From NCBI GenBank assembly GCA_944381185.1, contig CALWKE010000001.1, positions 1 through 64,000 of the forward strand: a stretch of DNA of 64,000 nucleotides, read 5' to 3'. Origin of the DNA: an uncultured Clostridia bacterium (lineage in GTDB: Bacteria > Bacillota > Clostridia > Christensenellales > UBA1242). Below, piece by piece: positions 24,247 through 39,365 of the stretch. Within the stretch, counting starts at the first letter, position 1. Each line of letters begins with the position of its first letter. Both the position numbers and the translations under genes were made by a program. The notes beneath the pieces were generated by a model that saw nothing but the letters and a program-made list of their open reading frames with translations, was not told the DNA's origin and ran no database searches.

Positions 24247-24987
24247 ATGGAAGCAAAAAAGAAAAAAAAGATTGTTGCTATCGTCTGTGCCATTATATTA
24301 GTTATTGCAATAGCTATTGTTGGCATAATTTTTAGCGTGCGTAAAAATAATAGCAATAAATCTTCTCAAAATGTTTCAAACGTTAACACAGAAAATTCAA
24401 CAACCATCACAAACACTTATAATGAAGCAATAGCGAAAGAACAAATTCCTGCAAACTATTCTGGACGATACAAATATTCACATGTTGCTTCTATCGATTT
24501 TCATTTTGATGAATACCCTGTTGAAGAAGCGAATTATTATATCCAAAAAATTTGTGAAAATAAAGGTGTCCGTGATGTTAATGGATTAATCAATCTTTTA
24601 AATAAAGAACAACTTGAAAAAACAAATAACGGAACTGATGTGCTCGTCTTCCAAGATGGTATATACACAAAAAATGTAGTTGGTAAAGATAGTTATGGCA
24701 ATGAAAAATATTTTCCAACTGAAAATGGAACCTATGTTGGTGATGACAACCTTGCCGTTGTAAGAGTTGATGGAAAAAATAAATTTTTTATGTCATTAAA
24801 CTATAAAATTTCCAGTGACGCAATAACTGCAGTTGTTGATGTTTCTGAAAACAACGGAACTAAACTTTATGTTTATGAAACCATTGTAAGCAGCAATGAC
24901 CCAACACTTGAACTCTTTACAGTTACTTATGTTTATGATATGTTTATACCAGACCACTCTATTCCTGATGAAAATTTAGATTTTTAA
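24247..24987 (+). CDS. Membrane-anchored extracellular protein, unknown
   Basis: 246 residues. Residues 8-30 (IVAIVCAIILVIAIAIVGIIF) form one membrane anchor after a Lys-rich start. A short Asn/Ser/Thr linker follows, then a beta-rich outer domain with YSGRYKY near residue 75 and repeated GTYVG/KLYVYE strands. I recognise no family. GGGAGTG precedes the ATG. The lipoprotein gene 17 bases downstream encodes a domain with a similar opening (NGIYKF and then RDINGVYD against RDVNGLIN), so the two may be distant paralogues expressed together. Confidence 0.75.
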   Translation: MEAKKKKKIVAIVCAIILVIAIAIVGIIFSVRKNNSNKSSQNVSNVNTENSTTITNTYNEAIAKEQIPANYSGRYKYSHVASIDFHFDEYPVEEANYYIQKICENKGVRDVNGLINLLNKEQLEKTNNGTDVLVFQDGIYTKNVVGKDSYGNEKYFPTENGTYVGDDNLAVVRVDGKNKFFMSLNYKISSDAITAVVDVSENNGTKLYVYETIVSSNDPTLELFTVTYVYDMFIPDHSIPDENLDF

Positions 24988-25004
24988 GCAAAGGAGATTA
25001 AAAA

Positions 25005-26048
25005 ATGAAAAAAACATTAAAAAAATTATCATCAATAATTTGCATGATTGCTCTACTCGTTGTTGCATCAGTATCCGTTGCTTGTGGCGGAGGCAAACCA
25101 ACAACAAACAATATTGATGCAAGTCAAACAAATATAACCGACAATGGAAATTCACAAATTGATTATGTTGAAAACACAGATGAAACAGAAACACCTGAAA
25201 TTCAAATTGAATTAAATGGAATTTATAAATTTGAAAACACCTATTCTTTTGATGATGTTTACTTTGAAGACTTAAATGAAGTTATAGAATTTTTCCAAAC
25301 AAGAGATATTAATGGTGTTTATGACGCCACAAAAAAACTTGGATTTGATGAATTTGTAAATAATATAACTAACACTGGAACACTTTCAAGAGCTTTGTTA
25401 TTTAATTCAAATGTTTGTTATAATCTTTCATACACTGAAAATAATGTTTACAAATCTGTTGATGAAGATTTAAATTTTGAATATTCAATTGCAGATGATG
25501 GAAAAATTACAACAAACAACACTTCAATTATTGAATATGATGCAGAAAATGATATAATCACAATCTACTTTATGTTCACTTATAATGATGGTGAAACAAT
25601 TGTTGAAACTCCATTATATGTAAAAACAACTTTATCAAAAGTTCCATATTCAACAGATATTAATTCTGGTGTAGATTATATTTACAATGAAAATTCATTA
25701 ATATTAAAAACAACTTCAACCGACTCAATAACATTTGATGATTACAAAGAAATTTTAAGCAATATATTCCAAGTTGAAGAAAATGCAGACTTACATGAAA
25801 CAATGATTAATACCCTTTCATCTTGGACACTCAATTTCAATGAAGATATGTCAACTATAGTTGTTACATTTGCAGATAATAGTTTTGCTATAGTTCACAT
25901 TAATAATGATGAGTCATACACAATTAATAACATAACCTTCAAAGTAACAGAAAGATTAAATGATATAACAACAAATACTAAAACCTTGGTTATGGAATTA
26001 ACTCTTGATAGTGAAACATCTCTTTGCTTTGAATTCGTAGAAAAATAA
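25005..26048 (+). CDS. Predicted lipoprotein, unknown
   Basis: 347 residues. Signal MKKTLKKLSSIICMIALLVV...SVACGGG with lipobox SVAC. After a Thr/Asn linker come two similar stretches: NGIYKFENTYSFDD near residue 70 and a later VDYIYNENSLILKTTST region, suggesting two beta-barrel-like domains of the type often seen in clostridial extracytoplasmic proteins. A strong AAAGGAG lies 7 bases before ATG. It forms an operon with the gene before it and ends at a two-way terminator. No enzyme motif is visible. Confidence 0.78.
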   Translation: MKKTLKKLSSIICMIALLVVASVSVACGGGKPTTNNIDASQTNITDNGNSQIDYVENTDETETPEIQIELNGIYKFENTYSFDDVYFEDLNEVIEFFQTRDINGVYDATKKLGFDEFVNNITNTGTLSRALLFNSNVCYNLSYTENNVYKSVDEDLNFEYSIADDGKITTNNTSIIEYDAENDIITIYFMFTYNDGETIVETPLYVKTTLSKVPYSTDINSGVDYIYNENSLILKTTSTDSITFDDYKEILSNIFQVEENADLHETMINTLSSWTLNFNEDMSTIVVTFADNSFAIVHINNDESYTINNITFKVTERLNDITTNTKTLVMELTLDSETSLCFEFVEK

Positions 26049-26126: not shown

Positions 26127-27647
26127 TTATAAAATTTCAAGTTTTTTATGGAATATCTTTTCAAAATCTCTGCCAACTTCCATACCACGTTGAATTTCAA
26201 ATGTTGCATCTGAAGTTGTTACCGTTTTCATAATAACTGAATCACCCAAAATATCACAATTAATATCAACAATAACACTGTTCTTTGTTCGATCAAAACA
26301 TTCAGCAAGTCTTAAAATTATTCCTAATTTTTTAGTTGCATCAACATCATCAACTGTGAGTATTCCATTAAATTTAGCCCAATCAGCCATTTTTATATCA
26401 CCACCTGAATGAAGTGATGCCACAAAACTTGCAAGAATAAGTTCACGATGTGTAAGTCCATATATTTCACTATTTATAACGACTTCAAATGAATGTCTTG
26501 CATGATTTTTATAACTAATTCGCTTGCCAACATCATGCATATAAGATGCAACTCGAAGAACTTTAACATAACTTCTTGGAAGTTTATGAAGAACCCGAAG
26601 CTGTTTAAATAAAAGCATTGAAAGATTATAAACTTGTTCATTATGTTTTGTTGAATCAGCTTCATATTCAGCAGTTTGAGCCATAACTGAAAACCCAACA
26701 ATATCTGAATTTGGCTTTTCAAGTGTTGTAGGTGTAACAGAATTAAACAACAAACCTTCAACAAGCGACCTTGTTGTTACTGTTATGGTTTCACGCGAAA
26801 TATTTTCAGTTATAGTCTTAATAACTTGAACAGCATAAGCAAACACATCTGCCCTGCTTTCATATAAATTTTTAAGCCTTTTGTTTTCATTAAGTTCAAT
26901 TGCTTTAAGTTGTTTTAAAATATGGTCTATATCTGCTGTATCAAAAACATAGCCATCATCTTTATCAAGTGGATATTTTTTATAAATTCTGTCCATACTT
27001 GAAAGGTCTTCAAAATATGGTCCATTACCAACAAAAACATACTCAGGCTCAATGTCTTTTAACCACCCAAAATCAGATAGTTGTGAGTTGATATATTTTG
27101 CAACCTTGTCAAAAGCCTCATCTTTTTCATATTTTGAAAGTGGATACATATCAATTAAATTTTTTGGCCCAACAGGAATATATGCCTGATTTAAGATATT
27201 TCTTCTGTTATATTGAATTAAATGAATATTATCAGCACCAACATTAACAACAATGGCTTTTGGCAAATCATAACTATTCATAATTCCTGTGTATATTGCA
27301 GCATTTTGTTCTTCTGGTGATAAAAGTGAAAATCTGAAACCACAAGTAACAAACACTTCATCAAAGAAACTATAAATATTCATAGGTTTAGTATCTTTAA
27401 CAAAGTCTGCAATCGCAATAGTTTTATTAACAGCAAACATATCACAAATTTTTCTAAAATTTTTGAGCGTGCTGATAATAGACATAATTTGATTTTTCTT
27501 TAAAAAGTGGTCATCATCAATTTCAAGACCAAACTTAATAGGCTCAATTTCAACATCACAAATTGAAAAGAAATTATCTTGAACAACATTTGCAATAACC
27601 AATTTTGCAGAATATGTTTCAACAACAACAACCGCTATTTTATCCAC
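26127..27647 (-). CDS. Ppx/GppA-like protein with HD domain, phosphatase site eroded
   Basis: 506 residues with the layout of exopolyphosphatase: an ASKHA domain (1-300) and a C-terminal HD domain (about 335-500). The HD domain is intact: MHDVGKRISYKNHARHSF (His371/Asp372). The N-terminal phosphate loops are not. The family DxGSNS reads VETYSAK (9-15), the DIGGGST loop reads NVGADNI (135-141) and the GNEEA segment reads SPEEQ (110-114). Canonical enzymes cut polyphosphate or pppGpp; here the HD part may be the working half, or the protein may bind nucleotides as a regulator. It starts at GTG with GAGG 6 bases upstream. Confidence 0.8.
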   Translation of the reverse strand: MDKIAVVVVETYSAKLVIANVVQDNFFSICDVEIEPIKFGLEIDDDHFLKKNQIMSIISTLKNFRKICDMFAVNKTIAIADFVKDTKPMNIYSFFDEVFVTCGFRFSLLSPEEQNAAIYTGIMNSYDLPKAIVVNVGADNIHLIQYNRRNILNQAYIPVGPKNLIDMYPLSKYEKDEAFDKVAKYINSQLSDFGWLKDIEPEYVFVGNGPYFEDLSSMDRIYKKYPLDKDDGYVFDTADIDHILKQLKAIELNENKRLKNLYESRADVFAYAVQVIKTITENISRETITVTTRSLVEGLLFNSVTPTTLEKPNSDIVGFSVMAQTAEYEADSTKHNEQVYNLSMLLFKQLRVLHKLPRSYVKVLRVASYMHDVGKRISYKNHARHSFEVVINSEIYGLTHRELILASFVASLHSGGDIKMADWAKFNGILTVDDVDATKKLGIILRLAECFDRTKNSVIVDINCDILGDSVIMKTVTTSDATFEIQRGMEVGRDFEKIFHKKLEIL

Positions 27648-27812: not shown

Positions 27813-28595
27813 CTAAATTCTAGAAATAACATGTTCAGGGCAAGCCGCAACACATTTGCCACACTTTGTGCATTTTGTTGAATCAATTTTTGGAAGCCCA
27901 CCAACCATTGTTATTGCACCTTCAGGGCACGCAACAACACAGGCTTCACAATGTGTGCATGCAACCTTACAATTTCGAGTTACAACTGAATCATTAGAAG
28001 AATTTTTGCACACAACTTCAACAAATTTACTGCTTGGAATAAGTTCAATTAAGTGATTAGGACACGCAAAAACACACTCTCCACAACCAACACATTTTTC
28101 TTTATCAACAATTGCACAACCCTTTTTTGATATTGAAATTGCACCATATTTACAAGCATTAACACAATCGCCACAGCCAAGACATGCAAATGGACAGTGC
28201 TTGTTTCCATCATGAACCAAGTTCATACTTGAGCATGTGTTGTCACCAATATAATTATATTTATTATTGCAATCAACCCCACCTTTACAGCGAACGAATG
28301 CAACATTATCAAAATGAACTCTGCGCTCTTTCTTTAAAATCTGTCTGATACGCAAATAATTTTTACCATTTAAAAACGGACATTGCCCCGGTGAAGTCTT
28401 ACCCTTGTAAAGGTCTTCTGCAAAAATAATACATTGTTCTCTGCCACACTCACCACAATCTAAATGTGGCAAAAGTTCATAGATAACTTCTGATGTTTTA
28501 TTCAACTTTTTATTCTTACTTTTAACTGATGAAACTATTATTGTTAATAACAATATCACAATAATAGCAACTGCATAAATAATTATTTGTAACAT
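27813..28595 (-). CDS. rnfB: Rnf-type complex subunit RnfB, ferredoxin-like
   Basis: 260 residues. One N-terminal membrane helix is followed by the Fe-S motif CGECGREQC...QCPF (Cys47, 50, 55, 72), then a clostridial-type Cys-rich middle, then ferredoxin clusters of the CxxCxxC type (GCGDCVNACKYG, GCGECVFACPNH, CTHCEACVVACPEG, KCGKCVAACPEH). All cluster ligands look intact. In Rnf, RnfB takes electrons from reduced ferredoxin. It is the last gene of the rnfCDEAB-like operon, 14 bases after rnfA. Unlike its partner subunits it shows no loss of cofactor residues. Confidence 0.92.
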   Translation of the reverse strand: MLQIIIYAVAIIVILLLTIIVSSVKSKNKKLNKTSEVIYELLPHLDCGECGREQCIIFAEDLYKGKTSPGQCPFLNGKNYLRIRQILKKERRVHFDNVAFVRCKGGVDCNNKYNYIGDNTCSSMNLVHDGNKHCPFACLGCGDCVNACKYGAISISKKGCAIVDKEKCVGCGECVFACPNHLIELIPSSKFVEVVCKNSSNDSVVTRNCKVACTHCEACVVACPEGAITMVGGLPKIDSTKCTKCGKCVAACPEHVISRI

Positions 28596-28609
28596 TTTTC
28601 CTCCGAATT

Positions 28610-29188
28610 TTACACAATAAGAAGTTCAGCATAATAAATTAAAATTGAAACAAATGCAAGCAAAAATAATCTAGAAGAAACATTTCTGAAATTAACATTT
28701 TGATAGCCTCTATTAAAACTTCTAACAAAAAATCCAATAATTGCTGTCATTGCCATTATAACTATTATAACAGCTATCATCTGCATAACAAAGCTTAAAA
28801 TAGAAACATTCATTTGAAGCATAAAAACAGATGATGCAACAAAAACCAAATCAAATGCGTAAGAATATGAACTTTCATATAAATAGAACTTAAGATTTGA
28901 TGACCTTTGCCATATACTAGAAACAATTAAATTAAAAACTCCAGATAAAAACACAACAATGGTAAAACCTATAAAATGCAAATCATTATCTTTTAACAAA
29001 TATGTTTCAAGAAAATAATAAACAAAACCTATAACACAAATTTCAAAAGCAAGCATAAGCATGTTTAGGTATCTAAATGACCTATACATTTTTTCTCGTT
29101 GAAATTCAAGGGCTCCTGAACCATTACTTAAAACTATATTGGTTTGCAAACCATATAAAATTAAATAGGATAAAAAAGTCTGCAACAT
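28610..29188 (-). CDS. rnfA: RnfA-like membrane subunit without the metal-site cysteines
   Basis: 192 residues with six hydrophobic segments, the length of RnfA (about 190). Position in the operon and length identify it. The canonical N-terminal NNFVLxRFLGxCPFxG is represented by TNIVLSNGSGALEF, so the Cys is missing. The second site TTNCAVLG is represented by ASSVFMLQMNVS, also without Cys. The only Cys is Cys50 in another helix. In canonical Rnf the RnfA and RnfE cysteines hold an iron site inside the membrane. The gene starts 2 bases after rnfE ends, with GGGAG upstream. Confidence 0.75.
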   Translation of the reverse strand: MLQTFLSYLILYGLQTNIVLSNGSGALEFQREKMYRSFRYLNMLMLAFEICVIGFVYYFLETYLLKDNDLHFIGFTIVVFLSGVFNLIVSSIWQRSSNLKFYLYESSYSYAFDLVFVASSVFMLQMNVSILSFVMQMIAVIIVIMAMTAIIGFFVRSFNRGYQNVNFRNVSSRLFLLAFVSILIYYAELLIV

Positions 29189-29190
29189 CG

Positions 29191-30099
29191 CTATTCATCT
29201 CCCTTATCTGATTTTCTATCAAACATTTTTTCAACTTTCGCTTCTTTTGAAACTTTAAGTCTTCGATTTTTCTTTTTCTTTTTTGGTTTAATCTCTTCTT
29301 TACTTTCACCATCTTCTAAATCAGAGTCAGAGGTGTTATCTTCAACCGTTTCATTAACATCAGATTTTTCCTGAATAATTTTAAACTCTTCATTTCCAAT
29401 TGTTCTAACATCAATAGGACTAGCAAGCATTTTCTTTCGTCTTAAATTGTCATATTGAAACATTTTTTCATCTCTAATTTTTTTGACAAACTTTTCATAA
29501 ACCATTTGCTTATCATAAACTTTTCTGCGAATATATCCGTAAATTGCTTCAACAACAGCACAGATAATACCCAAAAATATAAGTGAAAAAATTGTTCCTC
29601 TAAAAAATTCAATACCAGCAAAATTATTAGATATCACTTTGCCAAATATGCTTCCGAAACCCAAAATTTCTTTAAATATTGAAAATACCATAAGTATTCC
29701 AAAATAAAACAAAATAGCAGATATAATTTTTGTTGAAATTCTTCCAACAACCGCTTTTGTATCAATATAATAAATATCAACACTCAAAACAACTGTCGAC
29801 AAAACTGCTAAATAATACATATCATTAGCATTCAATCCCAAAATATTATACTTGTCTAATAGAAAATTTAAAATTGTAACAACCAAACAAGAAACCATTG
29901 CTGTCACAAAAACTTTAACAGTTGAACTTAAATATTTGTTAAAAAGTGCACATACAAGCATTGATAACAAAAATGCAAAAAACACCATAACAAAAACACA
30001 AAGTGCATCTTTTGCATAAGTCACAAAAAACATAACCGGACAAATTGCAAGAGTCGCCAAATGAACAATATTAAGCTCTATATTAGTTCTTATGTGCAT
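29191..30099 (-). CDS. rnfE: RnfE-like membrane subunit with a charged tail
   Basis: 302 residues. Residues 1 to about 205 contain six membrane segments. LATLAICPVMFFVT (Cys20) matches the LGLCPLLAVT of RnfE, and FSIFKEILGFGSIFG matches its SLREIIGxGTLF. The second Cys region (VTNCIxxGRAEAF in the family) reads LSVDIYYIDTKAV without Cys. An extra C-terminal tail of about 100 residues is highly charged (E/D then K/R) and cytoplasmic by prediction; I know no such tail in RnfE. The start overlaps rnfD by 17 bases. GGAGG precedes the ATG. Confidence 0.8.
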   Translation of the reverse strand: MHIRTNIELNIVHLATLAICPVMFFVTYAKDALCVFVMVFFAFLLSMLVCALFNKYLSSTVKVFVTAMVSCLVVTILNFLLDKYNILGLNANDMYYLAVLSTVVLSVDIYYIDTKAVVGRISTKIISAILFYFGILMVFSIFKEILGFGSIFGKVISNNFAGIEFFRGTIFSLIFLGIICAVVEAIYGYIRRKVYDKQMVYEKFVKKIRDEKMFQYDNLRRKKMLASPIDVRTIGNEEFKIIQEKSDVNETVEDNTSDSDLEDGESKEEIKPKKKKKNRRLKVSKEAKVEKMFDRKSDKGDE

Positions 30100-31012
30100 T
30101 TCTTAAACCTCCTAAACTTACAGGTTTCCAAACGAGATATGTATCCATCATTGGAACAAACAAGTTAACAAAAAGCAAAACAGCAAAAGAAGTATTCTCT
30201 CCTAAAACTCCTAAATTCCAAACTAGAGCAGAAAGAACACCAAACATAATTGAATAAATAAACTTTCCAAAAACAGAATCTGGTGAAGTGTTTGGATCAG
30301 TTAACATAAACACACTAACAAACAAAAATGAACCTGAACAAACATTTATAAGCGTATGGTCAATATCAGTAAATATTAAACTTGTAATTAAGTATGACAA
30401 AACTGCAATGATTGGAATTTTAAAATCGATAACTCCCGTATAAACCAAAAAAACATAGCAAAGCAAAATTATTATTATGCAAGTTGTTCCTATTCCACCT
30501 ATTGACTGACCAATCAATAAATTGACAATTTCATTAGACCCACCAAGTGCTATTGATGAAAGTTGTTCTCCACTATGAATAATTGTGTAAAATTCACCAG
30601 CAAAGCCAGAGGCAACAACGCCAGCGAAACATCTTGCAGTTCCTGCTGGATTAAATTTATTTCTACCAAGTCCACCAAATGCAATTTTAACAACTATAAT
30701 CGCAAAAAACGCAGATAAAACAACAATCCAAAGCGGTGCTTTATAAGGCATTGTTAAAGCCAAAATCATACCTGTTACAAAAAATGAAAAATCTTCAATA
30801 ACAAATTTTTTCTTTGTAATCAAATTGTAAACAAGTTCAAATACCGCACAAGATGCAACACTTAACAGAATGATAAAAAATGCTTGCAGACCAAAAAACA
30901 TAACACCATAAATTGCAGGAATTGTAAGAGCGATTGAAATGTATAAAAACATTTTATTAATATCATTTCCACTGTGAACAAATGGTGAATGAGACACAAT
31001 AAAATTTTCCAT
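30083..31012 (-). CDS. rnfD: RnfD-like membrane subunit without the FMN threonine
   Basis: 309 residues, eight or nine membrane helices. VSHSPFVHSGNDINKMFLYISIAL at the start, NKFNPAGTARCFAG (119-131) and FVSVFMLTDPNTSP near 235 all match RnfD/NqrB. The loop that carries covalent FMN in the family ([ST]xATPL with the ApbE-modified Thr) reads LSSIALGGS (151-159), with Leu at the Thr position. Covalent flavin is therefore not expected. The gene overlaps rnfC by one base and rnfE by 17; the rnfG gene normally found after rnfD is absent. Confidence 0.85.
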   Translation of the reverse strand: MENFIVSHSPFVHSGNDINKMFLYISIALTIPAIYGVMFFGLQAFFIILLSVASCAVFELVYNLITKKKFVIEDFSFFVTGMILALTMPYKAPLWIVVLSAFFAIIVVKIAFGGLGRNKFNPAGTARCFAGVVASGFAGEFYTIIHSGEQLSSIALGGSNEIVNLLIGQSIGGIGTTCIIIILLCYVFLVYTGVIDFKIPIIAVLSYLITSLIFTDIDHTLINVCSGSFLFVSVFMLTDPNTSPDSVFGKFIYSIMFGVLSALVWNLGVLGENTSFAVLLFVNLFVPMMDTYLVWKPVSLGGLRNAHKN

Positions 31013-32325
31013 TACTTGCCTCCCTTTTTAATCTTTAAATATTCTTTTGCGGCAGAAATTCTTTGAGTCAAAAATCTTTTAGCCGGACAAACATATGAAC
31101 ATAGTCCGCATTCAATGCAAGAATTTGCTTTAAGTTTTTCAACCGAATCAAACTCTTCATCAAGATACGCCGCTTCAATTCTTTTTGGATTTAAAAATAC
31201 TGGGCATACCTTTGCACATTTTCCACATGAAATGCAAGGATATTCCTTTTGGTCATAATATGCAGGATATTTATTAAACACAATGCTGTCAGTTAAAAGT
31301 GAAATTGAAATATCTCTGTTAAATTGTGCAATTCCTGAAAGTTCATTTCCATCAATAAGAGCTGAATTATCATTAGGATTTTCAATGCCAACAAAATTTA
31401 AAATGTTATCATAAGACACACCATTTTGAACAATGTAATTTCCTTTTCTTGAAACATTATTCCCGTCAACTGAAATAATTTTAGCAATAAGCGGTTTATT
31501 AAATTCAACGGCACGACAAAAATTATAGCAAGACTCTGCACTTTCAATAGTAATACCTGCATCTAAAAAAGATGTTTTTTCATTAATTTTTTTACCGCAC
31601 ACTAAATTTGCTAAAATATAAGGATTATCAAAAGGATATTTATTTGGTATGAACTTTACCCTAAAATCATAATTTTTCTTATTTTCTTCAATGTGTTTTT
31701 TAAGTTTTGTTGCAAGTTTATAATTTGCTTCAGTAAAAACAAAAGTTATAGTTGTTGCACTTGTGATATTCATAAAATATCTTGCACCATTAACAACCTC
31801 TTCCATTTTACATTCAGTTATTGTTTGGTTAACTGTGTTATTTGGATCAGTGCTATCAAGAAGAACAAGAAGAGTTTTATAACTTCTTGCACCAATGTAA
31901 GAATATTTTAAATAAGAAGGCATACCAGAAATTGTGTCAATAATTCCAGCATCTTTAAGTCTTTCAATCAAAACAACATCACTAATAGAACCAATATCTG
32001 GAAGATCTTGAACTTCATTTTTGTTGTCATTCATGATTAGAATATGCTTTGATTGCTCACCAGTTGAATTCATTTTTTCAAAAATGTTTAATACCTTTCC
32101 ACTGACTGGCGAAAACAAATTCAAACCAACTTTTCCAGCAGGCTTTGCAATAAGTGTTCCCTGTTTAACTTCATCACCAACCTTAACGCATGGTTCTGAT
32201 TCAGGAACGGTTGGAAGTTTAAGCGAAACATTATAAAATTCAATTGGCCTCATTTGAGCCAATTCTATGCCCGCAGTATCTTTTTTCTTTTTAGGATAAA
32301 TACCTCTAAAACTTACTAATTTCAC
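31012..32325 (-). CDS. rnfC: RnfC-like Fe-S subunit with altered NADH/FMN loop
   Basis: 437 residues from GTG at 32325. I chose this start because TTGAGG sits 6 bases upstream and the protein then begins VKLVSFRGIYPKKKK, like the family FxGGxHPP start. A barrel-sandwich hybrid region follows (PAGKVGLNLFSPVSGKV). The family FMN/NADH loop GxGGAGFPTHxK reads DTISGMPSYLK (about 130-140), and the next motif NGAECEPY is replaced by LDSTDPNNT. The C-terminus keeps two [4Fe-4S] motifs, CISCGKCAKVCP (364) and CIECGLCSYVCP (403). So electron relay is possible but NADH oxidation is doubtful. First gene of the operon. Confidence 0.88.
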   Translation of the reverse strand: MKLVSFRGIYPKKKKDTAGIELAQMRPIEFYNVSLKLPTVPESEPCVKVGDEVKQGTLIAKPAGKVGLNLFSPVSGKVLNIFEKMNSTGEQSKHILIMNDNKNEVQDLPDIGSISDVVLIERLKDAGIIDTISGMPSYLKYSYIGARSYKTLLVLLDSTDPNNTVNQTITECKMEEVVNGARYFMNITSATTITFVFTEANYKLATKLKKHIEENKKNYDFRVKFIPNKYPFDNPYILANLVCGKKINEKTSFLDAGITIESAESCYNFCRAVEFNKPLIAKIISVDGNNVSRKGNYIVQNGVSYDNILNFVGIENPNDNSALIDGNELSGIAQFNRDISISLLTDSIVFNKYPAYYDQKEYPCISCGKCAKVCPVFLNPKRIEAAYLDEEFDSVEKLKANSCIECGLCSYVCPAKRFLTQRISAAKEYLKIKKGGK

Positions 32326-32398: not shown

Positions 32399-32788
32399 TT
32401 AAGAATTTACTTTAGTTTTCTTACGCATAGCAATAATGGTTTTTATAAAATAAAAAATACCAACCAAAATAATAAAGCCCGCAAAGCAAATTCGAAGCAC
32501 AGATGATGATGTTTTTATTGCAAATAAACTCGAAAAAAAAGCAATTATTGTTGCAGGGATTGAAATTGCAATTAATGCAAAAAAATCAATAAGTTTGTTT
32601 TTTATATAGATAACAAAACAAATGATTGCAAGCACAATAAAACAAACAACATTTGTTGACTGACAAATAATTTGTTCAATACCAAAAAACAAACCGAGTA
32701 GTGGAATTAAAAATGTTCCACCACCCATACCCATTCCAGCAAACACACCTGAAAAACACGATATTAAAATTAAAAATAAAACTTGCAA
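32399..32788 (-). CDS. Half-size TauE/SafE-family permease
   Basis: 129 residues, four membrane helices. The N-terminal SGVFAGMGMGGGTFLIPLL is the conserved glycine-rich repeat of sulfite exporter/anion permease TauE/SafE. Normal proteins have about 250 residues with two such repeats; this is one half. The other half is encoded 67 bases upstream. The start is TTG after a perfect TAGGAGG. Two half proteins would form the complete transporter as a heterodimer. The substrate may be a sulfur-containing anion, which is only a family-level inference. Confidence 0.85.
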   Translation of the reverse strand: MQVLFLILISCFSGVFAGMGMGGGTFLIPLLGLFFGIEQIICQSTNVVCFIVLAIICFVIYIKNKLIDFFALIAISIPATIIAFFSSLFAIKTSSSVLRICFAGFIILVGIFYFIKTIIAMRKKTKVNS

Positions 32789-32855: not shown

Positions 32856-33236
32856 TTAAAAAATAATCATACAAACCCCAGCAATCACAAGCACAATTGC
32901 AAACACCAAATCTATAATATTGTTTTTTAATTTTTTAAGAAGTTTTGTTCCAATCAAACTTCCAATAACGCTACCTATAACACACACCAAAATAAGTTTG
33001 TAGTCAAATTCTTTTTTTATAAAATAAATTATTGAACTTGCAACACACATAAAAAGAACACAACCAAGTGTTGTTGCGTGTGCAGTTTTGCTATCAGCCT
33101 TTTCTGCATACGCAATCATAGGAACAAGCAAAAGTCCACCACCTGCACCAAAAAATCCATTGATAAACCCTGCAACTGTTCCCACTCCAAAAAGTTTTAA
33201 AAATCTTAAAATTTTTTGTTTTTTTAATTTGTTCAC
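32856..33236 (-). CDS. Half-size TauE/SafE-family permease
   Basis: 126 residues, four helices after a basic N-terminus. GTVAGFINGFFGAGGGLLLVPMIAYAEKADSKTAHATTL is the N-type repeat signature of TauE/SafE. It is the upstream partner of the half protein at 32399. Start codon GTG, without an obvious ribosome site. The two are probably co-transcribed from the promoter at 33265-33292. Confidence 0.85.
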   Translation of the reverse strand: MNKLKKQKILRFLKLFGVGTVAGFINGFFGAGGGLLLVPMIAYAEKADSKTAHATTLGCVLFMCVASSIIYFIKKEFDYKLILVCVIGSVIGSLIGTKLLKKLKNNIIDLVFAIVLVIAGVCMIIF

Positions 33237-33419: not shown

Positions 33420-36400
33420 ATGAACAAGTTTTCAAAATATTTAATTAAAAAACAAAAATCAATTTTAAGCTTGCTTTTGGCATGCGTTTTAATGCTAACT
33501 TTTAACTATGCACCAATATCAATCTTGATTGAAAATTACAAACAATCAAACGCATATAAGGCTAACACAACTCAATCATATTATCCAAATTCAAGCACAA
33601 CAAATGAATCTAATATCAGCACCGGAAGTTACCCTTCTTCACTTGAAAAATATTTTGAAGGTAGCAACCGAAACTTTAATATTGCAACATATTATTCAAA
33701 TAGGTTCTATGATATCTATTCAAACAATTTGCATTCTTATTTAAATGATTCAAGACTAGATGATATTGTTGCAGGCTTCACAACTCTTTATAAAAATTAT
33801 CTTGACTTTTTAGGTTTTGAAACTCTTTATGATTACTATAATTCAAACTCATCAGAACTTAACGAAAAATACGAAATTTCAGATTTCAGAGGCTATGCTG
33901 AATATTTTGTTACCCACCAAACAACTTGGACTGATAGTGATGGCGACGAACACACAATTAGTGCCCTTTTCACTTTAGACGGAAATCAAGATGACCCAGC
34001 CAATGAAACTGATAGAATTAAATTTTATAATTCCTTTGCAAATTTTGTTAAAAAAGAAAACATCAGTGTTGATGGCGATGATGGCATAACAAACGAAACA
34101 GAAGATTTTTATAAAGATAGTGTTTCATATAACAGATTAAAGTCTTACATTGACACTTATATTGAACAAACAATAGCCATTTATACTTATGATGGAACAA
34201 CTCAAAATAAAAATGTTGCTGGAATTTTAGCAAATGGTGTTCCAACATCACAAAGTTATTATTATTCTGATGGCGAATATAAAACAATTGGTGAACCAAT
34301 CGAAAAATACATGACTGTTTCTGGTTCAGATAAAAAAGTTATCTATTATTTTGGAAGCGAACAAGATATTCAAAACTATGATGTTTATATTAATAACAAA
34401 GACGCTTTTTCAATCAACAACATCAGTGTTTTAGAAAAAGAACCAATATTATATAGATTAATCAAAAGTGGCGAAACTGGTTATATTGATGACAGTCACC
34501 CAACCTATTATAAATATGACAGTTCAACACCATACACAACAACAAACAGCGCTGTTGATATTTACATTTTAAATGACAGCCCAACAGATAACGAGCTTGC
34601 TACATACAATTCTCTTTACTATAATGTTATAACAAGTGAAGAACTTTTGGAAGATGCAGATTTTTATGTTCAAATTCCATATTCTGAATCTAACACAATA
34701 TATTTTGAAAACATCACAGGTTATAGCAAAACTGAATTAAAATTTGAAAACTTTGTAAATGCCTTCACAACAAACAAAACTGGTGCAACTGAAAGTATCA
34801 TTTATTTCAAACTTCGTGAAAACACCGATCGTGTTGTTTATTTTGATACCAGCACAGGGCTTAGTTTTAGTGAATTTCAAAACACTCATCAAGACTTTAT
34901 GAAATCTCATGTTGTTGTTGAAATAAATTTAAACAATGTTGACAACTCAAACGATTATTACAAAATTGACCCAGCTAATGACAACTATCATTCATATTAT
35001 GTTGATGGCTACCCTCTTTACTTTGAAAAAGTTAAAGTTAATTATGAAACTGTTGACACAAGTGAAAGTGTTTATACTGGTGAATATGAAATGGTTGCAA
35101 CAGCAAACATTCCTTATGAAAAAACCAATGTTCCATCTGAATCTTATGAAATGAATTCAGGCAAAAAAGTTATTTATGTTTTAAGTGAAAACCAAAAAGA
35201 AGTTATCAATGGTGTTACCTATAAAACAGTTTCAGCAAGCAACCTTGCCGCAATCAAAAATGAGTATGTTGCAGTGCCTGACTTTGTTTCAGATGAATTG
35301 AATGATGCAACTGGAACTTACAAATTTTATTACAGACACACACTAATTGAAGTTAATCAAATTTATGTTATTGATAACGATAAAGATGCATCAGATAATG
35401 AAGTTTATCAAAACTTGCACTACAATGTAATAACAAGTGATGAATATGATGCAAATTTCTATAAGTATTCTGTAATTTCTTCAGAAGATGAAAATTATAA
35501 TAAAGATTTCAAACTTTATTATAAGTATAATGAAACAATTGAACGTGAAAATCTTTATGTTCAAAATGAAGTTAGAGGTGACAACGCAATATATATTATT
35601 GATGACTCTTTAACTTCTGCTGATAGAACAAGATACAAACTCAACAACTTTACCCCAATCACAACAAGTGACTTCAATGCAGAGTCTGAATTTTATGTTC
35701 AAATTCTAGAAAATGATGACAACTATTCAACAGAATACACAAAACTATATTACAAATATAGTTCAAATGCCACACTTGAAAAAGCGGTTTACATCTATTC
35801 ATCAAAATCAAGCACTGAATATTTAACTTTCTATAACACTGATTCTGATTATGTTGCTTCTGATTATGAATTAATTCAGCCGGGTGACCCAAATTATGTT
35901 GAAAGAACTGAACTTTATTATAAAAGAATAAGAAATGAAAAATATGTGCAAAACACACAAGAAACTTACTTCTATTATCAAACAACTTCAACTGTTTCAC
36001 TTAAAGCCAACAGTTATTATGCAATTTCATTCTATGTTTACACAAACGGCTATTATGATGAAGCAAAAGAGTTCCCTGTTGAAGCATCTGTTTATATGAG
36101 AGATACAAACAATGTTCTTTCAGAAATAAAACTTGAAGAAATTTCAACAGATGGCAAATGGCAAAAGTACTATTTCTTCATAGCAACAAACACAATTTCA
36201 ACTTCTGCAATAAATCTTTACTTCTATATGGGTAACAGTGAAAGCATTTTAGGAAGCACATACAATGCTGATAACCCAGATTCTAATTTTGAAACAGTAA
36301 CAGGCACAGTTTTATTTGATGACATTAAAGTTATGCAAATCAATGAAACTGACTACACAAAGCGTGCAATTAATGATGTTCCTGTTTTATCAACACAAAT

Positions 36401-39365
36401 TGAAGAAGATGATTCTGCTGACACTGGAACAGAAGAACCTTCAACACAAACAGACACAACCACCCCATCAGATAAAGATGTTGATGAATATGGCAATTTA
36501 GTCTTTGTTGCAAATGAAATGACAAAGTATAATTCAATTATCTTTGATAACAAAACAAAAAATGATGTAAAACTTTGGAATAATCTTTCTTGGAATGAGA
36601 TGTTCAATGTTGATGGACTTTCAGATACTTTTGCTGGCTTAACTTTTGAAAAAGATGAAAATGATAAGTATCCTGATGGCTACTCTGCTTTGAACGATAT
36701 TTGGCAATACTATATTGGCCGTGAAGTTTCGGGTCAAGGCAATAACGACAGATTAAAACAATATCAAAATGCTTATTCAAGTGGTGATTTAATTTTATCT
36801 GTTATTGATGAAAGCACAATCGTTAAAAATTTAGATGACAAAGTTGATGAAGACGAAGATGAAAGTTCATCAAAAGCAAGTAACTCTGATTCAGGAACAT
36901 CTTCTGGCGACGATGATAAAGATGATGATATCAAAGTTGTTGAATCTACATTTAGAAAAGATAACAAAGTTTTAAAAGTTGAAAATAAAAATAGACTTGT
37001 TACCCTTGGCATAACTTCAAACACTATTGAAGTTGAACAAATGATGTATTACAAAATTACTGTTTGGGTTTATGCAACTGATGAAGATGCAAAGGCAACT
37101 GTTCTTGTTAACTCAATCATGAAAACTGCAACATCACCAGAACTTGGAACTCAACTTCAAACTGAAGCAACAATTGATGCTTGTTTTGATTCTGACTCTT
37201 ATTCAAAAGATTCAACCAATGAATATGGCTGGATTCCTATAACAATTTATATTGAAGGCAATTCTCTTCATAATCAAGATATAACTCTTGTTCTTTCTGC
37301 TGGCAGAAATTCAACGGTTTACTATGACAATATTTCAATTGAAAGAATAACAAGTGCTGCTTACGACACTGCAAGTTCAGATAAAGACGACACAACCTTT
37401 ACCCTTTCATTAAATCCAAGTTCAGCAAATATCTCAAATGGAATAACAAACGGTTATTTTAATAATGTAACTATTACAAATAACTATAATGATATTGACT
37501 ACACTCTTCCAAGAACCGCTGAAACATGGACTGTTGAATCAATCAATTCATCAAATGTTATTGCAGGTGTTGTTCCAACTGGCGAAACATATACAAGCAG
37601 AACTGAAAACTTCTACACAAAATATAATAATGGTGAAGTTCCAACCTCAAATGATGGCTTACCTGTCAATGTTTATGCAATTTATGCCCCATCAAAAGTT
37701 AAAGCTTCAATTTCAAATGCAACCGATAAAGAATTTGACACAACTAACATTTATAAAATTTATACCGGTTCAATGAGTTTGTCTGCTTCAAATGTATACA
37801 AAATTTCATTCGATTTCTATGCAGGATATGAATTTGATGGAACTATGACTGCAGCAATTTATCAAGGTTCAGTTGCAACTGACAAAGTTGTTTCAACAAT
37901 AACCGCATCAGAATTTAATGAAGGCTGGAACACTTATACCTTCTATATTGCAACAGGAACAGCCTCTTCAACCGTATATCTTGAAATTGGTGTTGAAAAT
38001 GCAACTGGAACTTGTTTCTTTAAGAGTGCATCAAACACAACTGAAAAAAAATCTCTCGATGAAATTCGTGACGACATGATCACTAGTGATGAAAATTCAT
38101 CATCAAATGCAGACGATATTTATAACAAAGATACTTTTAAAAATATCAGATTTATCAATTTAGCTGATTCAAACTTCACAATTCATGGCGACTTGAAAGA
38201 TGATGTTTCTAATTATTATGAAAATAATGAATATAATTCAACATTAGACAACACATCATCATATACTGTTGGAAAGTCTGGTATAGTTGTTTCTTCATAT
38301 TACACTTATGTTTCAGAATATTCATACACAGTAACAATTAATAAAGTTGAATATTACATCAAAGGTGTAACTGACGAAGAAACTGGCAAAACGGTTTATA
38401 AGTTATATAGTGATTCAATCTATACAGATGAAGTTAAAACAATCGATGGAAAAGAAGTTTCTATTCCAAGTTTAGATAAAGTTGTTATTGGAACAGAAAC
38501 TAATAACACCGAATATGATATAACCGAAACTGAAGAAAGAATTTATTCTTATAACTTCACAGAAAATGTAACAATTAATAACATTGAAATTCAAGCAAGT
38601 GAATTTAATAATAATTATTCACAAAATGTTATGGTTTTGGCAAATGGTCTTTCAACTGACTACACTGTTGTGTCACCAAGATTCAGCAATTCACTTAAAA
38701 CCAATTCATATTATGTGTTAAGAATTTATGTAAAAACAAGTGACTTTGATAATGAAGATTTTGGTTTAACAATGAAAATTGGAACCATCTCTGTTACATG
38801 GGAAAATATCAACACTGTTGGAAATGAAAACGCTGACGAAAATGGTTTTGTTTGTTATCAAGCATTAATAACAACAAACACAAGTTCAATTTCAAACTTA
38901 AATATTGAATTCTCACTCGGAAGCAAAGATTCAACAGGCTCAGGTTATGCAATCATTGCCGGAGCTAAACTTGAACAATATTCAACAGAAAAGCTTTTCA
39001 ATGAATATGTTTCAACTCTTGATGAAAATGATGAAACTGTTAAAAAATTCTTTGGAACAAAATCAAATGATAGTGATGACGATGATGATGACGACAGCGG
39101 AATTAATGCTTGGGCTGCAACATTCTTCTATGTATTCTCTTCTCTCCTTTTAGGTGTAGTTCTTGTTGTTGCTATTGTTGCCGTTGTTCTTAAAAAACAT
39201 CCAATCAAACACACTCAAGAATTTGAAAATGAACATGAACAAAGCAATGATCCAAATTCTCCAAAAACATCAAAGAAAAATAGCTTTATAGATGTTAATA
39301 AAGAGGAACCAAAAACAACAAAGCAAAATGATATTAACAATAATGATGATGAGGGCTTTGTTTAA
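33420..39365 (+). CDS. Giant membrane-anchored surface protein with repeats and carbohydrate-binding-like modules
   Basis: 1981 residues. A signal-like segment (residues 15-35) is followed by a Ser/Asn/Tyr-rich ectodomain. Residues about 395-850 contain repeated units with NVITSEE/NVITSDE, FYVQI and LYYKY motifs spaced irregularly. Four beta-sandwich-like modules follow near 860-975, 1197-1310, 1449-1540 and 1757-1860; each opens with a YY(A/K/V)I..(F/Y/W) strand, and two end in FDDIKV or YYDNISI, typical of CBM4/9 and related jelly rolls. Low-complexity acidic stretches separate them, including a DDDDDDD run just before the final membrane helix (GINAWAATFFYVFSSLLLG). A short charged tail of about 55 residues is cytoplasmic. 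There is no LPxTG motif. Its size and Tyr/Thr/Ser content suggest adhesion or glycan binding; that is inference. Confidence 0.88.
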   Translation: MNKFSKYLIKKQKSILSLLLACVLMLTFNYAPISILIENYKQSNAYKANTTQSYYPNSSTTNESNISTGSYPSSLEKYFEGSNRNFNIATYYSNRFYDIYSNNLHSYLNDSRLDDIVAGFTTLYKNYLDFLGFETLYDYYNSNSSELNEKYEISDFRGYAEYFVTHQTTWTDSDGDEHTISALFTLDGNQDDPANETDRIKFYNSFANFVKKENISVDGDDGITNETEDFYKDSVSYNRLKSYIDTYIEQTIAIYTYDGTTQNKNVAGILANGVPTSQSYYYSDGEYKTIGEPIEKYMTVSGSDKKVIYYFGSEQDIQNYDVYINNKDAFSINNISVLEKEPILYRLIKSGETGYIDDSHPTYYKYDSSTPYTTTNSAVDIYILNDSPTDNELATYNSLYYNVITSEELLEDADFYVQIPYSESNTIYFENITGYSKTELKFENFVNAFTTNKTGATESIIYFKLRENTDRVVYFDTSTGLSFSEFQNTHQDFMKSHVVVEINLNNVDNSNDYYKIDPANDNYHSYYVDGYPLYFEKVKVNYETVDTSESVYTGEYEMVATANIPYEKTNVPSESYEMNSGKKVIYVLSENQKEVINGVTYKTVSASNLAAIKNEYVAVPDFVSDELNDATGTYKFYYRHTLIEVNQIYVIDNDKDASDNEVYQNLHYNVITSDEYDANFYKYSVISSEDENYNKDFKLYYKYNETIERENLYVQNEVRGDNAIYIIDDSLTSADRTRYKLNNFTPITTSDFNAESEFYVQILENDDNYSTEYTKLYYKYSSNATLEKAVYIYSSKSSTEYLTFYNTDSDYVASDYELIQPGDPNYVERTELYYKRIRNEKYVQNTQETYFYYQTTSTVSLKANSYYAISFYVYTNGYYDEAKEFPVEASVYMRDTNNVLSEIKLEEISTDGKWQKYYFFIATNTISTSAINLYFYMGNSESILGSTYNADNPDSNFETVTGTVLFDDIKVMQINETDYTKRAINDVPVLSTQIEEDDSADTGTEEPSTQTDTTTPSDKDVDEYGNLVFVANEMTKYNSIIFDNKTKNDVKLWNNLSWNEMFNVDGLSDTFAGLTFEKDENDKYPDGYSALNDIWQYYIGREVSGQGNNDRLKQYQNAYSSGDLILSVIDESTIVKNLDDKVDEDEDESSSKASNSDSGTSSGDDDKDDDIKVVESTFRKDNKVLKVENKNRLVTLGITSNTIEVEQMMYYKITVWVYATDEDAKATVLVNSIMKTATSPELGTQLQTEATIDACFDSDSYSKDSTNEYGWIPITIYIEGNSLHNQDITLVLSAGRNSTVYYDNISIERITSAAYDTASSDKDDTTFTLSLNPSSANISNGITNGYFNNVTITNNYNDIDYTLPRTAETWTVESINSSNVIAGVVPTGETYTSRTENFYTKYNNGEVPTSNDGLPVNVYAIYAPSKVKASISNATDKEFDTTNIYKIYTGSMSLSASNVYKISFDFYAGYEFDGTMTAAIYQGSVATDKVVSTITASEFNEGWNTYTFYIATGTASSTVYLEIGVENATGTCFFKSASNTTEKKSLDEIRDDMITSDENSSSNADDIYNKDTFKNIRFINLADSNFTIHGDLKDDVSNYYENNEYNSTLDNTSSYTVGKSGIVVSSYYTYVSEYSYTVTINKVEYYIKGVTDEETGKTVYKLYSDSIYTDEVKTIDGKEVSIPSLDKVVIGTETNNTEYDITETEERIYSYNFTENVTINNIEIQASEFNNNYSQNVMVLANGLSTDYTVVSPRFSNSLKTNSYYVLRIYVKTSDFDNEDFGLTMKIGTISVTWENINTVGNENADENGFVCYQALITTNTSSISNLNIEFSLGSKDSTGSGYAIIAGAKLEQYSTEKLFNEYVSTLDENDETVKKFFGTKSNDSDDDDDDDSGINAWAATFFYVFSSLLLGVVLVVAIVAVVLKKHPIKHTQEFENEHEQSNDPNSPKTSKKNSFIDVNKEEPKTTKQNDINNNDDEGFV

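Follow-up and report, generated by a model that had tools for sequence, protein, structure and literature searches.

A stripped rnf operon in uncultured Clostridia that keeps its [4Fe-4S] clusters and lacks the known flavin and membrane [2Fe-2S] path

The 64,000-nucleotide stretch of DNA analyzed here (the window), from an uncultured Clostridia bacterium (genome G000, genus g1), carries at 27813-32325 on its minus strand an operon for homologues of the Rnf complex. Very probably, a canonical rnfCDGEAB operon was transformed in place in a common ancestor of several genera belonging to one Clostridia family. The electron path would have lost its extracytoplasmic half, that is the flavin mononucleotide (FMN) of RnfG, the covalent FMN of RnfD and the flavin transferase ApbE, together with the transmembrane [2Fe-2S] step at RnfA/RnfE and the NADH end formed by the FMN/NADH loops of RnfC. 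A cytoplasmic Fe-S relay of six RnfB and two RnfC clusters, the three membrane subunits and most residues on the riboflavin/Na+ side of RnfD appear to have been kept under purifying selection.

Textbook Rnf carries electrons from ferredoxin to NAD+ along a U-shaped transmembrane path, and the membrane [2Fe-2S] cluster and the covalent flavins are regarded as necessary for pumping by Rnf and Nqr. The known path leads from ferredoxin to RnfB, via the [2Fe-2S] cluster of RnfA/E, the FMN of RnfG and the FMN of RnfD to the riboflavin of RnfD, and from there through the RnfC clusters and the RnfC FMN to NAD+ (PMC12174285). Compared with this ferredoxin:NAD+ oxidoreductase (RnfABCDGE; A. woodii 9eri, C. 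tetanomorphum 7zc6), the operon in the window encodes homologues of C, D, E, A and B in the same order, occupies the same syntenic place as the canonical rnf of sister families and shares all [4Fe-4S] ligands of RnfB and RnfC as well as most riboflavin-side residues of RnfD. It differs in lacking RnfG, ApbE, the covalent-FMN site of RnfD (in g1), the [2Fe-2S] ligand set of RnfA/E and the FMN/NADH loops of RnfC. Its features and immediate neighbours, in window coordinates, are:

31012..32325, minus strand: rnfC homologue, two C-terminal [4Fe-4S] sites present, FMN/NADH motifs gone (Pfam match)
31915..31938, minus strand: RnfC loop DTISGMPS replacing GGAGFP (alignment to canonical Rnf)
30083..31012, minus strand: rnfD homologue, 309 amino acids (PF03116, E 1e-70, sole Pfam domain)
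30536..30562, minus strand: RnfD loop LSSIALGGS replacing the covalent-FMN loop SGATPL (alignment)
29191..30099, minus strand: rnfE homologue, C20 (LAICP) present, second cysteine substituted (Pfam match, alignment)
29776..29799, minus strand: RnfE STVVLSVD at the site of the canonical second cluster cysteine (VNCIILGR; alignment)
29191..29511, minus strand: charged cytosolic tail of RnfE (alignment)
28610..29188, minus strand: rnfA homologue, both [2Fe-2S] cysteines gone (profile comparison, alignment)
29114..29143, minus strand: RnfA TNIVLSNGSG at the site of the canonical first cluster cysteine (..GICPF..; alignment)
28814..28837, minus strand: RnfA ASSVFMLQ at the site of the canonical second cluster cysteine (TTNCAVLG; alignment)
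27813..28595, minus strand: rnfB, with one membrane anchor, an Fe-S domain (PF04060), four Fer4 motifs and four extra linker cysteines
32399..32788, minus strand: half-length TauE/SafE protein directly upstream of rnfC (PF01925 above cut-off)
32856..33236, minus strand: second half-length TauE/SafE protein (PF01925 above cut-off)
26127..27647, minus strand: Ppx/GppA-type phosphatase downstream of rnfB, a conserved syntenic neighbour (Pfam)

The five rnf genes are intact, tightly spaced minus-strand open reading frames in the order rnfC-rnfD-rnfE-rnfA-rnfB. The rnfC frame starts at GTG 32325 behind a ribosome site and could be extended to TTG 32364; the starts of the other rnf genes are also preceded by GAGG/GGAGG-type ribosome sites. 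The description of the operon in the original prediction, with sound frames and start sites and without rnfG, thus holds: rnfD and rnfE overlap, which leaves no room for rnfG. In the remainder of the genome (5 contigs totalling 1.37 Mb, completeness 94.7%) a profile search found no FMN_bind protein of the RnfG type (PF04205), a profile past which a degenerate RnfG could slip, and ApbE was not found either. PF02508 matches this genome once, namely in the RnfE described here, and RnfD and RnfC also have one match each, which rules out a second, canonical rnf operon.

Pfam recognizes RnfC, RnfD, RnfE and RnfB of the window, and RnfA has no Pfam match. A profile of 15 variant RnfA rows aligns end to end with canonical RnfA (hhalign 97%, E 5e-11), and profile comparison likewise matches RnfE with canonical RnfE (99%). 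The AlphaFold model of RnfA (predicted local distance difference test, pLDDT, 60) finds RnfA 8ahx_A as its best, non-significant fold match in the PDB; this model and that of RnfC (pLDDT 51) are below the quality needed for pocket analysis.

Cofactor sites were called by alignment to canonical Rnf of the same order and to solved structures. The window RnfA has neither cluster cysteine and RnfE retains C20 only. RnfC reads DTISGMPS for GGAGFP and PFDNPY for PQGAEK, so that GAEK of YPQGAEK is gone, and the cysteine of NGAECEPY is missing; its eight of eight cluster cysteines provide for both [4Fe-4S] clusters. RnfB has all 24 canonical-invariant cluster cysteines, equivalent to six [4Fe-4S] clusters. 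RnfD has no threonine at the SGATPL-loop position. Alignment to 7zc6_D by phmmer reproduces the published C. tetanomorphum numbering (N90, N124, R130, T153, E185, D248), for which the window RnfD has T87, N121, R127, no threonine, T176 and D239, respectively. In C. tetanomorphum, N124 and D248 line the cytoplasmic riboflavin/Na+ pocket and N90 and E185 lie on the FMN side (PMC9588780, PMC11889175). T87 and T176 as opposed to the kept N121 and D239 thus mean that residues around the extracellular FMN are altered and the pair of the riboflavin/Na+ pocket is retained. The losses originally read from the window alone are borne out in RnfA, RnfE, RnfC and RnfD, as is the completeness of the RnfB and RnfC cluster cysteines, whereas the wording that sites are missing in every subunit went too far, RnfD having largely kept its riboflavin side and RnfB having lost nothing.

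The same pattern recurs in relatives. None of 18 variant rows has either cluster cysteine of RnfA; the first RnfE cysteine is present in 12 of 20 rows, the second only in L104-L106, and both never occur together. RnfD N90 and E185 are absent from all 20 rows, while N124 is kept in 19 and D248 in 17, with glutamate in two more. The RnfD threonine is absent in g1, and genus g172 alone retains a threonine at the aligned position, yet no ApbE was found there. In RnfC the glycine loop and the loop cysteine are gone in all 23 rows and all eight cluster cysteines are present in each of them; RnfB keeps 24 of 24 cluster cysteines in 17 of 17 rows. Nearly all RnfC rows retain the positions P-[STA]-Y-x-[KR] and YP; ECEP is replaced by an acidic D-P. 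RnfC of genus g1 furthermore contains two new invariant cysteines, C279 and C283 (numbering of the 450-residue protein), in the motif AExCYNxCRAVEF. This pair and the retained P-[STA]-Y-x-[KR]/YP positions possibly make up a new ligand site.

The charged tail of about 100 residues that had been put forward as a novelty of RnfE is real, although the canonical relatives L041 and L044 have charged tails too. Its first part, KxxKxIRDEKxFQYDxLRRxKLL, is conserved in the genus; other genera have a shorter tail with LVEKYKxxI.

The stripped operon was found in 24 genomes, all of them metagenome bins, from six genera within a single family of uncultured Clostridia with genomes of about 0.7-2.0 Mb. All seven congeners carry it as far as their contigs extend, with RnfD 52-64% identical, and searching 297 genomes of the family with RnfC added five further genera, between which RnfC identity is about 33-38%. 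Every locus with sufficient contig reach has the order tauE, tauE, rnfC, D, E, A, B; in most cases a large surface protein comes before this block, and ppx and mreB come after it. Recurrence in 24 separate genomes rules out contamination or an assembly error in a single genome. Neither ApbE nor an FMN_bind protein was found in any of the 24, the latter again by the PF04205 profile that a degenerate RnfG could evade; by comparison, 10 of 11 relatives of the order with an RnfD match have ApbE, the exception being a 51%-complete genome. A scan of contigs with the RnfC alignment of the genus yielded seven loci, all of the same genus and from gut-type metagenome-assembled genomes (MAGs) including goat, sheep and roe deer. 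Such a scan with one RnfD sequence gave no match, a five-row RnfA profile, too narrow for the purpose, gave only weak scores outside the genus among 396 genomes of the order, and tblastn of RnfB against plasmids returned nothing but canonical-type matches below 60%.

All five genes are under purifying selection. Within genera, the proportion of synonymous differences (pS) is 0.59-0.84, near saturation, and that of nonsynonymous differences (pN) 0.16-0.39, lowest in RnfB and highest in RnfE/RnfA, with pN/pS of 0.22-0.59 across the five genes; for RnfC, the sole close pair with unsaturated synonymous sites has a dN/dS of 0.036. Columns invariant in canonical Rnf are retained in 90% of variant rows at 42 of 64 positions in RnfB, 29 of 86 in RnfC, 21 of 83 in RnfD, 3 of 69 in RnfE and 1 of 75 in RnfA. 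The Fe-S subunits are therefore tightly held, and the RnfA/RnfE pair is remodelled but still constrained. RnfA variants share an invariant N17 and near-invariant G23, K33, Y104 and R168, and Y111, E144 and G149 are conserved in RnfE variants. The common losses in six genera, the full set of RnfB/RnfC Fe-S cysteines and the selection on all five genes uphold the view in the original prediction that random decay is not at work and that the complex functions without the usual NADH/flavin chain.

The flanking genes, which the original prediction had overlooked, identify the locus as orthologous to canonical rnf. In the sister families represented by G025 and G030, both with ApbE, the syntenic position is occupied by tauE, tauE, rnfC, D, G, E, A, B, ppx, and the motifs are canonical. 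The stripped operon, which has the same tauE pair and ppx as flanks, is thus an in-place descendant of the canonical one. In a tree of RnfC and RnfD all 20 stripped rows split from the canonical ones and G016 with 100/100 support (midpoint root), consistent with one origin of the stripped form. G016 (genus g10) is intermediate: ApbE, all four RnfA/E cysteines and RnfD STATVL are present, and the RnfC loop reads GLSGSGFP. In its locus (L033, 6330-10354) RnfA is fused to the first Fe-S domain of RnfB only, and two degenerate RnfG-like genes end in SSASYT.. and SSGTLT... A remnant exists in G011 (genus g5; L141, 4694-8376), consisting of tauE, tauE, a 388-residue RnfC without clusters, a 63-residue RnfB remnant (PF04060) and ppx. 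RnfD, RnfE and RnfA have gone there together with the RnfC clusters and most RnfB clusters. Only tauE, tauE and ppx are left in G012 and G014, and only ppx in G009.

With four stations of the known path gone, neither this path nor the pumping coupled to it when the membrane cluster is reduced can run as described. Textbook ferredoxin:NAD+ chemistry by the stripped complex is very unlikely on the residues present: the known route would now take electrons neither across the membrane nor to NAD, and the complex would not be a redox-driven ferredoxin:NAD+ pump. Because RnfB is complete, ferredoxin is a plausible electron donor, and its reduced form probably still docks on RnfB. Solved Rnf structures place the clusters of RnfB and RnfC over RnfA/E and the RnfD riboflavin/Na+ pocket. 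The charge state of these clusters could open and close a passive or secondary ion or anion pathway through RnfA/E/D, of which the co-encoded TauE halves may be part. As a tentative proposal, the former pump might be a ferredoxin-redox-gated transporter, redox-gated and not redox-driven, formed by RnfA/E/D and perhaps TauE without covalent flavin, metal cluster or membrane-crossing electrons. The disappearance of the RnfC clusters along with the membrane core in G011 hints that the clusters of the stripped form work with the membrane part. Taken as a whole, in-place stripping combined with a gated membrane module is the explanation we prefer, and we would give it about an even chance of being right. 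Several points weigh against it. With 1 of 75 invariant columns kept in RnfA and 3 of 69 in RnfE, the membrane subunits may serve as a scaffold and not as a conduit; D248 of RnfD is not kept in L113 and is replaced by glutamate in L030 and L114; and all of the genomes are metagenome bins.

The main rival is a rewired enzyme in which electrons would pass from ferredoxin via RnfB to the RnfC clusters on the cytoplasmic face, possibly with a non-covalent riboflavin in RnfD, and on to an acceptor docking at the old NAD site, without crossing the membrane. Retention of every cluster cysteine in RnfB and RnfC fits this proposal, as do the mostly retained N124 and D248 of RnfD, and the P-[STA]-Y-x-[KR], YP and acidic D-P positions of RnfC give the impression that some ligand still binds to the old FMN/NADH domain. 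In addition, Nqr/Rnf-like complexes without the RnfD threonine still use a non-covalent flavin site (PMC11334425). On the other hand, more than 30 Å lie between the clusters of RnfB and those of RnfC in the A. woodii structure, where direct transfer was judged unlikely (PMC11889175), the operon encodes no acceptor enzyme, and RnfA and RnfE would be needless. We regard such an enzyme as possible, at rather low probability.

A slowly decaying relic, in which genome reduction is erasing the locus and the genes still present do little or nothing, would agree with the small genomes and with the series in place from the canonical operon of the sister families via G016, the stripped form and G011 to G012/G014 and G009. 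It is nevertheless an unlikely explanation: frames are intact in six genera, 32 cluster cysteines are 100% retained, operon order is conserved, purifying selection acts on every subunit (with a dN/dS of 0.04 in the close RnfC pair), and neutral genes would not outlast the divergence between genera seen in RnfC. Quite unlikely, too, is that the split TauE/SafE transporter is the true partner and that the Rnf subunits serve it as Fe-S accessory or scaffold, regulating or anchoring anion export. Wherever the contig of a stripped locus extends that far, a tauE gene lies immediately before rnfC, at least one half is present in G016, and the pair both precedes canonical rnf (G025, G030) and persists after Rnf loss (G012, G014); but an association older than the stripping does not explain the stripping. 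That the complex is still a classical pump, with non-canonical cofactor ligands and an unrecognized RnfG or flavin transferase elsewhere, can hardly be upheld: the degenerate RnfG of G016 that escapes the FMN_bind profile, the g172 threonine and the single RnfE cysteine in many rows are outweighed by the lack of ApbE in all 24 genomes, no more than one of the four [2Fe-2S] cysteines, the missing N90/E185 and an RnfC FMN loop gone in all.

Related systems resemble the stripped form in single traits. In Na+-NQR (NqrABCDEF), the RnfC homologue NqrA is devoid of redox cofactors (PMC12174285), but NqrF takes the place of RnfB and the core flavins, riboflavin and membrane [2Fe-2S] cluster are present, whereas the stripped form has RnfB and the core is gone. 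Two-subunit Nqr/Rnf-like flavinylated complexes (PF03116 + PF00175) also contain an RnfD homologue without the flavinylated threonine (PMC11334425); they retain a flavinylated subunit of the RnfG/NqrC type and, fused to PF03116, the NAD-binding domain PF00175, while the stripped form has neither, but RnfA/E/B/C. Both short proteins upstream of rnfC match the TauE/SafE anion exporter family (PF01925), from which they differ in being two half-length genes co-encoded with rnf; in G011 the halves cover opposite ends of the PF01925 profile. In the open-licence literature no description was found of an Rnf without RnfG and flavins or of TauE together with RnfC.

Ppx/GppA and MreB are not claimed as functional partners, ppx adjoining an mreB-like gene also in genera without rnf. 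Between mreB and ppx, at 24247-26048 of the window, lie two fast-evolving single-anchor or lipoprotein-like genes particular to this genus. On the other side, 33420-39365 encodes a protein of 1981 amino acids with N- and C-terminal hydrophobic segments, of the surface or cell-wall type. In most genomes of the family this large surface protein lies in divergent orientation next to the tauE-rnf operon, and a weakly similar counterpart adjoins canonical rnf in G025/G030. [FeFe]-hydrogenase (PF02906) is absent in the six g1 genomes searched, G000 and congeners, and outside g1 only one of the stripped genomes searched lacks it; as its presence does not track stripping, it was rejected as an explanation.

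Canonical, intermediate, stripped, remnant and absent versions at one syntenic locus make the order of loss reconstructable and testable. Seen in about two dozen species and long retained, the stripped form sets apart what the Rnf subunits contribute to structure, to Fe-S wiring and to the ion pathway. For predictions of energy metabolism from MAGs, it means that the entry 'Rnf present', assigned by gene name or Pfam, can mislead, since stripped operons would be labelled ferredoxin:NAD+ pumps.

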